A stretch of DNA of 64,000 nucleotides, taken from positions 1 through 64,000 of the forward strand of contig CALUTP010000038.1 in NCBI GenBank assembly GCA_944323725.1, given 5' to 3'. Below the pieces are notes generated by a model, which saw only the letters and a list, made by a program, of their open reading frames with translations, had not been told where the DNA came from and searched no databases. Source of the DNA: Candidatus Gastranaerophilales bacterium (GTDB lineage: Bacteria; Cyanobacteriota; Vampirovibrionia; Gastranaerophilales; Gastranaerophilaceae). The translations under genes were made by a program, and so were the position numbers. Below, piece after piece: positions 26,278 through 59,367 of the stretch (within the stretch, counting starts at the first letter, position 1; each line of letters opens with the position of its first letter).

Positions 26278-26964
26278 ATGGATATGAAAAAGATTATATG
26301 TACAATTGCGCTTGCGCAATCATTATTAATAGCACCGGCTTTTGCATTAAGTTTTGGAAAAGAAAAGCCGATTGTCGTGCCGAAAAATTTTCCAGCGAAA
26401 TATAATGCAGATTATATAAAAAGAATAACCCCAGAATATAAATCTGTAGGTGAAGATTTTATATTTTATGTAGCTCTGGATATGCTAAAAGGTACGAATG
26501 GAGAATTCTCTCGTAAAGCAATCTTAGGGAATAACCTTTCACAGCGTCCTGTAAAAATTGAATTTAGGGATTTAGCTTCAATAAATCCCGACTATGCTTC
26601 ATTTGATGCATTAGGTTGGAAACGGGGAAAACAATTATATATTTATATAAATCCAAGACATAAAGATGCCCCTCCAGGAGCTCTTGCAGCATTATTATCC
26701 CATGAAGCACTCCATCAGGATGAATACAATTCTCTAGCAGAAGAAACTTATGCTTGGACAATGGAAGCTTCTGTGTGGTGTGAAATATTAAATGTTTATC
26801 CTGAAAGTGATGAGAATCTTCACCCTTTAGTTACTCGTGAAAATACTTTGAAAAAGTTGTTTGAAAAAGGTAATTATTCAAGCAAATATATAAAGAAAAC
26901 AGTTCATGCAAATGAAGGATATAAAAACCTTCCGGCAACATCTCCGGGTTTTGAAGATTTATAA
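26278..26964 (+). CDS. Exported putative zinc metalloprotease (HExxH)
   Basis: 228 aa. GAGGAG precedes the ATG (a second ATG lies two codons on). A signal peptide ends near APAFA. The mature part holds LAALLSHEALHQDEYNS with H142-E143-xx-H146, a classical zinc-binding HExxH helix preceded by hydrophobic residues. About 13 residues later comes AEETYAWTMEA, whose Glu could be the third zinc ligand as in gluzincins. The rest gives no family name. Location would be periplasm or surface. Substrate unknown; protease activity is inferred from the motif alone. Confidence 0.7.
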   Translation: MDMKKIICTIALAQSLLIAPAFALSFGKEKPIVVPKNFPAKYNADYIKRITPEYKSVGEDFIFYVALDMLKGTNGEFSRKAILGNNLSQRPVKIEFRDLASINPDYASFDALGWKRGKQLYIYINPRHKDAPPGALAALLSHEALHQDEYNSLAEETYAWTMEASVWCEILNVYPESDENLHPLVTRENTLKKLFEKGNYSSKYIKKTVHANEGYKNLPATSPGFEDL

Positions 26965-56782: not shown

Positions 56783-57355
56783 ATGATGAAGAAGTTATTG
56801 GTAGTACTAGGGTTAATGTTGTTTTTTTCAAGTAGTGCATTTGCTTGGAGTACCCCTCGTTGGACAGTTTTTCCTTTGAATGTATACATTGAGGATAATA
56901 AAAATTCTGAGGTAATACGTCAAGCTTTTGTTGATTGGCAGATTGGTGCTAAAAAGGTTAACCCATTTATAAGGTTTGATTTTAAGGAAGGTGAAAGAGG
57001 ACTTAGGAAGTCTCAAATTGATGTCCGTTTTGTATCTGGCGCTCAGCCAAACGGTCAGTATTATTCAGTAGCTTCAAATTCTTTGACTGATGGTTTTTCT
57101 CTTATAAGAAATAATTCTGGATTTTTTTATCATGTATCTATAAGTATATCAACAACTGATAGTGAGGGGAGCCCTTTATCAAAAGCTAAGTTACATTCGA
57201 TAGCTCTTCAAGCAGTAGGACGTTCACTTGGTATTAACTGTATAGGCTCCATTAATAATGTAATGAGTTGTAATACAGAATATGAAGTGAATAAGATTAC
57301 TCCACAAGATTTATATGCATTGAAAAATGTATATAGTTATGTAAGAAATAAATAA
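56783..57355 (+). CDS. Matrixin-fold protein with degenerate active site
   Basis: 190 aa with a signal peptide ending near SAFA. The body follows the matrixin (M10-like) plan: W-T-V-F-P-L-N-V-Y-I opening strand, QAFVDWQIGAKKVNPFIRFDF (the helix and strand usually AFxxWxxxxxxxFxx), IDVRFVSG, then the active-site helix. Where metzincins have HExGHxLGLxH, this has LQAVGRSLGI with Gln143, Ala144 and Arg147 replacing His, Glu and His; NNVMSC matches the Met-turn region. It cannot bind the usual zinc and is probably a pseudoprotease. A paralog follows 32 nt later. Exported; function unknown. Confidence 0.8.
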   Translation: MMKKLLVVLGLMLFFSSSAFAWSTPRWTVFPLNVYIEDNKNSEVIRQAFVDWQIGAKKVNPFIRFDFKEGERGLRKSQIDVRFVSGAQPNGQYYSVASNSLTDGFSLIRNNSGFFYHVSISISTTDSEGSPLSKAKLHSIALQAVGRSLGINCIGSINNVMSCNTEYEVNKITPQDLYALKNVYSYVRNK

Positions 57356-57386
57356 TAAATATAATAAATATATAATAGGAGGGTGT

Positions 57387-57938
57387 GTGAAAAAAATATT
57401 AATGTTAATTGGTATAATGCTGATTAGTGCTGGAACTGTATTTGCTCTGGGTAGTCCTAGATGGCGTTTTTCTTCATTAACCGTATATATGCCTCCTGTA
57501 CCTGAGTCTACGATAACTCAAAAAGCATTTAGTACTTGGGAGAACTCTTCTGGCGGAATATTAAGATTTAAAATTGGAACCAGACGTTCCTATAGCAGGT
57601 ATGCTCATATTTCTATTAGTTATATAGATTCTCTTGCTCCTGGTCAATATTATGATGTTATGTACGATGTTTATCGTCCGGGATTTTCTACGCATAAAGA
57701 AAGTTCTTTTGTAGCTGATTATTTTTATAAAGTTGATGTTCGGATAAGGACAAAAGATGAAAATTATAAAAAATATACAGATTCACAGTTATATGCAATA
57801 ACTCTTCAAGCAGTAGGACGAGCATTAGGCGTAGGTTACGTAGAAAAACCAAATAATGTTATGAGTTATAATTTAAGTCTAGATAGTATTAAAATAACTC
57901 CAGAAGATGTTAGCGCTTTTATGAAAGTTTATAAATAA
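57387..57938 (+). CDS. Second matrixin-fold protein with degenerate active site
   Basis: 183 aa from GTG 57387 with AGGAGGG upstream. It has a signal peptide and is 30-40% similar by eye to the 56783 product: W-R-F-S-S-L-T-V-Y start, FSTWENSSGGILRFKI, IDSLAPGQYYDV, LQAVGRALGVG and NNVMSY. The residues in the place of the zinc histidines and catalytic Glu are again Gln141, Ala142 and Arg145. The duplication happened after the loss of the site, as the same substitutions are shared. Coexpressed with the first copy; probably exported partners or decoys. Confidence 0.8.
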   Translation: MKKILMLIGIMLISAGTVFALGSPRWRFSSLTVYMPPVPESTITQKAFSTWENSSGGILRFKIGTRRSYSRYAHISISYIDSLAPGQYYDVMYDVYRPGFSTHKESSFVADYFYKVDVRIRTKDENYKKYTDSQLYAITLQAVGRALGVGYVEKPNNVMSYNLSLDSIKITPEDVSAFMKVYK

Positions 57939-57957
57939 AAATCTACTTATAATGGTT

Positions 57958-57984
57958 GATTTTTCAAATACTGTTTGAAAAATC
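57958..57984. promoter_or_regulatory. 11-bp hairpin overlapping the symporter -35 region
   Basis: GATTTTTCAAA, 5-nt loop, TTTGAAAAATC. The right arm contains the -35 TTGAAA. It lacks a following U tract on either strand, so it is more likely an operator or weak terminator of the upstream unit. Confidence 0.45.
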
Positions 57985-58003
57985 ATCTATAATGTTGTAT
58001 AAT
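57975..58003 (+). promoter_or_regulatory. Sigma-70 promoter of the symporter gene
   Basis: TTGAAA (57975-57980), 17-nt spacer, TATAAT (57998-58003). Start near 58010; AAGAGG precedes ATG 58045. Confidence 0.85.
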
Positions 58004-58044: not shown

Positions 58045-59367
58045 ATGAAATTACACATGCAGATACTGATTGCTCTAGGTTTAGGGATTAAAAGGAACTG
58101 GCATATATTTTTTGGTATTATAGCTGGTATTTTGGTTGGTATATTTCTGCATAGTCATTCTTTCCATCTTATTCATACTTTGTTAATTTTTATAGGTCAG
58201 GTTTTTATAAGATTAATTCAAATGGTCGTTATTCCTCTGGTTGTTTCAGCAATTGTAATTGGTATTACAAGTGTAGGGGATAATAAACAGCTTGGAAAAT
58301 TCGGTTCAAAAATGGTATTATACTATGGAATTATAACTGTTGCGGCAGTAGTTATTGGCGCTACTCTAGCATTACTATTTAAACCAGGTTTAGGTGCTGC
58401 TCATTATATAGCTGCTAATTCAGCAAGTGAAGTACAAACAGCAGTTTCTACTGCAATGGCTCAGCAGCAAGGGAATATTTTGGGAATTTTCTTAGATTTT
58501 ATTCCAAGTAATCCTTTAAATGCATTAGCTCATGGAAATATGGTTGCAATAATTGTGTTTGTTCTTATTTTTGCTGTTGCGTTAGCAAAAGTTGGTGATG
58601 TGAACAGACCAATTGTTTCCTTTTTTGAATCAGTGTTTGCGGCAACAATGAAAATTACTGATTGGATAATGTTTTTAGCTGCTCCCGGTGTATTTGCTCT
58701 TACAGCTTCAGCAGTGTCAAGCTTTGGAGTAGATATATTTATGAGTATTTCCAAATATCTTGGAGTATTGGCTATTGGTTTTTTACTTCAGTTATTTGTT
58801 GTGTATCCATTATTTTTGAAATTTTTCTCAAAGGTAAATATTGGAATGCTATATTCAGCTGTGGCAGAAGCTATGATGGTTGCTTTTGGAACTGCTAGTT
58901 CTTCAGCTACTTTGCCTTTGACAATTGCTTGTTGTGAAAAAAGAGGAATTTCTCATAAAATTTCTAGTTTTGTTTTACCACTAGGGGCAACTTTAAATAT
59001 GGATGGAACAGCTTTATTACAAACTGTAGCTGTAATATTTTTAGCTCAAGCTTATGGTGTAGTGCTTACCCCATTTTTAGTAATTCAGATTGGATTGCTT
59101 GCAATTATAGCATCTTCAACTTGTGCAGGAATTCCTGGAGCTGGATTGATTACTATAGCTCTTATTCTTAATGGTATGGGATTAAGTCCAGAACAGTTAG
59201 TAGCAGGTTTTGCATTTCTGTTTACTATAGAAAGAGTTACTGATATGATGAGGACATTAGTGAATGTCACTTCTGATGCAGTTGTAGTTGCAGCTATTGC
59301 TGATAATGAAAATGAAATTAACTATGAGTTGCTTAATAATCCTCAGGCATATGAAGATATAGCATAA
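58045..59367 (+). CDS. Dicarboxylate/amino acid:cation symporter (DAACS)
   Basis: 440 aa with about eight membrane helices and two re-entrant loops. Markers of the GltP/DctA family: FIRLIQMVVIPLVVSAIVIGI near 55, the serine-rich loop FGTASSSATLPLTIACCEKRGIS near 278-300, and the NMDGTAL motif near 318 that binds sodium/proton and aspartate. Cys-rich SSTCAGIPGAGLI near 353 is the second hairpin. It imports glutamate, aspartate or C4-dicarboxylates with cations. It has its own promoter and ends 13 nt before queF. Confidence 0.92.
   Translation: MKLHMQILIALGLGIKRNWHIFFGIIAGILVGIFLHSHSFHLIHTLLIFIGQVFIRLIQMVVIPLVVSAIVIGITSVGDNKQLGKFGSKMVLYYGIITVAAVVIGATLALLFKPGLGAAHYIAANSASEVQTAVSTAMAQQQGNILGIFLDFIPSNPLNALAHGNMVAIIVFVLIFAVALAKVGDVNRPIVSFFESVFAATMKITDWIMFLAAPGVFALTASAVSSFGVDIFMSISKYLGVLAIGFLLQLFVVYPLFLKFFSKVNIGMLYSAVAEAMMVAFGTASSSATLPLTIACCEKRGISHKISSFVLPLGATLNMDGTALLQTVAVIFLAQAYGVVLTPFLVIQIGLLAIIASSTCAGIPGAGLITIALILNGMGLSPEQLVAGFAFLFTIERVTDMMRTLVNVTSDAVVVAAIADNENEINYELLNNPQAYEDIA

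Follow-up and report, generated by a model that had tools for sequence, protein, structure and literature searches.

The stretch of DNA analysed here (64,000 nt, the window) harbors two tandem genes whose products, P1 and P2, are very probably pseudoproteases: the catalytic residues are lost and the genes are kept under selection. The favoured reading (probability about 0.55) is that both are exported, non-catalytic and metal-free versions of matrixins with a binding role, for which matrixins of the same cell, or the substrates of those matrixins, are the likeliest partners. The two intact ORFs share a strand, with 31 nt between the P1 stop and the P2 start (Table 1), and their products are 33% identical along the full length (E 5e-35). 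By inspection of the translations, the signal peptides end in AFA (before WS) or in VFA (before LG), in line with the initial annotation of two exported proteins with intact frames and signal peptides.

Table 1. Features of the P1-P2 locus (window coordinates)
Feature	Position	Strand	Basis
Flanking gene, C-terminal SEC-C-like cysteine motif, divergent from P1	55319..56641	-	neighbour kept in g1, g13, g35
Extended -10-like element TGTTTTAATATAAATATG, directly ahead of P1 start codon	56768..56785	+	conservation across g1
P1, exported matrixin-fold pseudoprotease (very probable), 190 aa	56783..57355	+	ORF, Pfam, AlphaFold2 model, structure match
P1 signal peptide MMKKLLVVLGLMLFFSSSAFA	56783..56845	+	translation by inspection
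P1 former zinc helix LQAVGRSLG (LHEIGHALG in active relatives)	57206..57232	+	alignment
P1 Cys153 at third zinc histidine position	57239..57241	+	alignment
P1 Met-turn Met161 and Cys163 (second and last Cys of mature protein)	57263..57271	+	alignment
P2 Shine-Dalgarno AGGAGG, 4 nt ahead of GTG start	57377..57382	+	sequence
P2, second exported matrixin-fold pseudoprotease (very probable), 183 aa, GTG start	57387..57938	+	ORF, Pfam, P1 comparison
P2 signal peptide MKKILMLIGIMLISAGTVFA	57387..57446	+	translation by inspection
P2 former zinc helix LQAVGRALG	57804..57830	+	alignment
Flanking dicarboxylate/cation symporter-like gene	58045..59367	+	neighbour kept in g1, g2, most g13 loci

The matrixin fold of P1 and P2 is supported by profile comparisons and by modelling. 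PF00413 (Peptidase_M10) is the sole Pfam match for either protein, with scores (P1 21.2 bits, E 3e-4; P2 23.9 bits, E 4e-5) that fall 0.1-2.8 bits short of the 24-bit cut-off. The match spans residues 27-184 of P1 and 26-182 of P2, and positions 9-158 of the 159 in the profile; this near-full coverage, together with the nesting of the clade among matrixins that keep HExxH, places both proteins in the PF00413 homology family. A search of NCBIfam with P1 and P2 gave no match. Against the PDB, the profile of 17 relatives that share the lost motif (dead proteins, alignment A1) finds chains of human MMP-1 and MMP-16 and of karilysin (E 6e-4 to 0.05), the same group that is found by the profile of 13 active relatives (A2, E 1e-9 to 1e-13). 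The AlphaFold2 model of P1, built on the 17 sequences of A1, has a pLDDT of 82 and a pTM of 0.79 and matches karilysin and MMPs with probability 1.00. Its best PDB match is the karilysin catalytic domain (E 1.6e-6, TM 0.60-0.68), as is that of an active control model (E 4e-9). The r.m.s.d. is high (about 5 A or more), as the models take in the signal peptide and loops, so that the fold is supported at family level and not in detail. The model match and the Met-turn methionine (Met161 in P1, Met159 in P2) are those of a metzincin. The matrixin plan proposed from the sequence is thus borne out by Pfam, by the dead-family profile and by the model, and the suggested comparison with M10 templates yields karilysin and MMPs for P1 and no different fold.

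P1 and P2 resemble matrixins (PF00413, MEROPS M10A) in fold, order of elements, the N-terminal P-R-W / V-Y strand, G-x-x-x-G helix spacing and the Met-turn Met, and differ from them in having no zinc ligand, catalytic Glu or recognisable propeptide switch, and in scoring under the Pfam cut-off. In alignment with active relatives, the first His of HExxH is replaced by Q, the Glu by A and the second His by R in both proteins, exactly the two helix sequences, each followed by NNVMS, that the initial annotation had described. The third zinc His is Tyr151 in P2. Consequently, where an active M10A enzyme has HExxHxxGxx(H/D), P1 and P2 read QAVGRxLGxx(C/Y), with the Met of NNVMS retained. The same state occurs in many genomes, which rules out a sequencing error. 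A relocated site, leaving P1 and P2 as enzymes or metal proteins, might be read from the polar residues (Q, R, K, E) conserved at the former His positions, but candidate ligands are few: mature P1 has two His (117, 138) and two Cys, and mature P2 has two His and is free of cysteine. Furthermore, a search of A1 for an invariant His, Cys, Asp or Glu found none, the invariant residues being K3, A21, P25, R26, W27, Y35, A48, F49, W52, F65, Y94, I122, A144, G146, G150, M161 and Y184. With no conserved ligand in the dead proteins, this alternative is rejected as highly improbable.

The 164 loci read encode 138 distinct matrixin proteins, of which 91 have HExxH and 45 do not (1 cut and 1 other were set aside). 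The dead gene is found in 12 of the 13 genomes of the window's genus (g1), being absent only from G007, and recurs in the genera g2, g13 and g35 of the same family. The residual motif varies between genera: mostly L[QER]A[VI]G[RKE]x[LIV]G in g1, mostly L[RQ]A[VI]G[ERQ]xxG in g2, xxEIGYILGL in g13 (Glu usually retained, second His always Tyr) and LHE[IT]ANALxL in g35, in which only the second and third His are gone and there is no Met-turn. The Met-turn segment is also deleted from two g2 proteins (L094 1495-2019, L095 1498-2040). Further dead motifs are HEVGKVxGLPS in g10, LHYAGLAMGLEK in g27 and HEVGKAIGMP in one g8 protein. All 13 g1 genomes carry further matrixin genes, and active HExxHxxGxxH relatives co-exist with the dead gene, so that the active homologues that were to be sought in related genomes occur in the very same ones. 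The window genome has its own small active-type matrixin (L003 1-392, contig C34); the contig ends just before the HExxH position, and a search for the C-terminal half elsewhere did not find it. In genus g8 (L025, L047, L144, L145, L147, L150), small active matrixin genes form clusters of 3-4 on both strands, which suggests a local family expansion.

A maximum-likelihood tree of 82 rows was built with the zinc-helix columns omitted, so that the dead trait had no influence on its shape. The dead proteins of g1, g2, g13 and g35 all fall in one clade of 35 rows (bootstrap 99 / SH-aLRT 97), recovered in 99% of 200 bootstrap trees and again in a quick tree of 111 rows; due to long branches, the order within it is unsure. 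The dead g10/g27 and g8 proteins branch outside. Overall, the starred branches imply that the dead state arose at least twice, and the best tree has three changes. Gene order is consistent with common descent of the main dead clade. The SEC-C-type gene (55319 homologue) borders the dead gene on one side in both g1 and g13, and the symporter gene (58045 homologue) borders it on the other in g1 and at most g13 loci; in g35 the dead gene adjoins the SEC-C gene, and in g2 it neighbours the symporter and has two cell-division-type genes upstream. Around the symporter gene of 30 further genera in the family, the flanks read contained no matrixin gene. Dead orthologues occur in single copy in other g1 species and in g2, g13 and g35, so that the zinc site must have been lost well ahead of the duplication that gave P1 and P2; loss before duplication, as originally proposed, therefore holds, and the tree rules out the reverse order. 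Judging by the range of motifs left behind (HExxN, xExxY, QAxxR), the loss may have begun with the second and third His and have reached the first His and the Glu afterwards. At two loci (L106 2031-4008, L109 8584-10107), an insert of two ORFs lies between YchF-like and SEC-C genes; the ORFs are intact in G004 and fragmented in G008, and one begins like an adenine methyltransferase.

Nei-Gojobori estimates support purifying selection on the dead genes: dN/dS is 0.06-0.21 in closely related dead pairs (upper bootstrap limits 0.12-0.47) and 0.03-0.12 in active pairs. Some dS values are near saturation (window vs L004), and the close pairs are therefore the firmest (L004/L005: P1 0.13, P2 0.12; L010/L011: 0.07). 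In g1 dead proteins the best-conserved mature segment is the former zinc helix, with a mean pairwise identity of 0.60 (0.31-0.53 in the others). The view that these are relics on the way to pseudogenes, kept by chance, could draw on the many combinations of drifted active-site residues, on the deleted Met-turn of the two g2 proteins and on the loss of the gene in G007. However, frames are intact in 45/45 dead sequences, dN/dS lies far under 1, the promoter and start region are conserved and nearly the whole genus has the gene. Pseudogene decay is rejected on the dN/dS values, and a relic is very hard to credit; the retention originally claimed is supported.

The two genes differ in how they begin. 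The -10-like element of P1, with no exact match elsewhere in the window, lies 6 nt before the ATG and has an identical place in 12/12 listed single or first-copy g1 dead genes. It is still recognisable in g2, and the g13 version reads TG-nTATAAT, 6 nt before the ATG; upstream of the element, a GCAA-T-rich block is likewise kept in g1. No Shine-Dalgarno sequence was found ahead of the P1 start, which, together with the position of the -10-like element, suggests a leaderless mRNA. The good spacing that had been ascribed to both genes therefore applies to P2, which has a Shine-Dalgarno sequence, and fails for P1. Downstream of P2 and ahead of the symporter gene there is an inverted repeat (57949-57993) with 20-nt arms that are 85% complementary. 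It overlaps a strong sigma-70-like promoter (57975-58003, 11 of 12) and is a possible operator; its conservation in L106 is not obvious.

If the fold is metal-free, other contacts may do the structural work of zinc. Mature P1 contains exactly two Cys, 153 and 163, the latter two residues past the Met-turn Met. This pair flanking the Met-turn occurs in 12/15 g1 and 12/12 g13 dead proteins (L130, in which the Met-turn reads AM, was counted by position), and in 0/66 active single-domain matrixins. Possibly, a Cys153-Cys163 disulfide across the Met-turn replaces zinc as a staple in P1-type proteins. The idea covers only part of the dead clade, since the pair is absent from P2-type, g2 and g35 dead proteins. 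At the first two His positions, one helix turn apart, the residue pairs Q-R, Q-K, E-R, R-E and Q-Q recur, and polar or oppositely charged pairs (Q-R, E-R, R-E) may share the structural role.

That several genera have kept a family of dead enzymes, at a genomic position that is largely conserved, makes a binding function probable; the matrixin fold would now serve as a periplasmic or extracellular binding module. The partner may be an exported active matrixin of the same cell or a substrate of one, for which the dead copy would be an inhibitor, a chaperone or a substrate shield; such a partnership is tentative. The strongest hint at it comes from g35, where in 4/4 genomes read an active matrixin gene directly follows the dead gene (-1 to +3 nt apart). 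In g1, g2 and g13, the active matrixin is not beside the dead gene, which from its upstream sequence seems to have its own promoter. Strict co-occurrence with the closest small active paralogue also fails: G001, G009 and G010 (the last two 99% complete) carry the dead gene without it, which limits the commitment made here to an exported, non-catalytic binding protein. The further matrixins read in G001, G007, G009 and G010 have an intact HExxH.

The same observations bear on a free-standing binder unrelated to proteases, in which the old cleft or a new surface would bind an envelope component, a host mucus protein or a peptide, as adhesin, scaffold or solute binder. The three genomes without the closest paralogue and the separate locus with its own promoter in g1, g2 and g13 agree with it. 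So do strands 91-125, which change fast in g1 and g2 (identity 0.31-0.32) and are the least conserved part of the g1 dead proteins (0.31), as a fast-changing surface is expected of a protein tuned to varying partners. On the other hand, it leaves the g35 tandem unexplained, the proteins show none of the anchors, repeats or extra domains that are usual in adhesins, and larger HExxH matrixins remain in G001, G009 and G010. A free-standing binder is a real but lesser prospect. The initial annotation took the dead fold to suggest binding, by an inhibitor, decoy, adhesin or scaffold. Genomic evidence that active matrixins are the partners is limited, and some of it points the other way. The favoured reading, that P1 and P2 are exported non-catalytic binding proteins of the matrixin fold, can be extended to a metal-free partner in which a Met-turn disulfide replaces zinc and which regulates active matrixins exported into the gut, but this full version is unlikely.

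Karilysin of Tannerella forsythia (2xs3, 4in9), whose structure is the closest one solved, provides a precedent: with its inhibitor potempin A (PDB 8b2q) it exemplifies one bacterium encoding both a matrixin and its inhibitor. In contrast to potempin A, a dedicated inhibitor according to the PDB title, the candidate here is itself a paralogue of the protease, though a dead one, and inhibition is one of its possible actions. In a survey of zincins with substituted HExxH, His tends to be replaced by Arg, Lys or Glu, and Glu by Ala; decoy or accessory roles are suggested, and inactive ADAMs are discussed (PMC3650047). The dead clade has the same kind of non-random substitutions and differs from those zincins in that it consists of bacterial matrixins, occupies a conserved locus and, in part, has a new Met-turn Cys pair. 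iRhom pseudoproteases, inactive protease relatives, regulate an active metalloprotease (PMC6451368); they are eukaryotic with an unrelated membrane fold, so the likeness is analogy only. Inactive zincins are therefore already known, and what is new here is the clade, its conserved locus, the Cys pair and the dead-active abutment in g35. The open-licence papers searched included none on a bacterial matrixin pseudoprotease. To our knowledge, the function of bacterial inactive zincins is largely untested. The clade offers a clean test set, with dead and active paralogues of one small fold within the same genomes, an abutting pair in g35, intermediate states (HExx[NYK]) that are still visible, and a candidate swap of metal site for disulfide. 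It also makes exported matrixins a recurrent feature of an uncultured gut lineage. Elsewhere in the window (26278-26964), another exported protein carries HEALHQDEYNSLAEE, a zincin-like motif outside the matrixin family.
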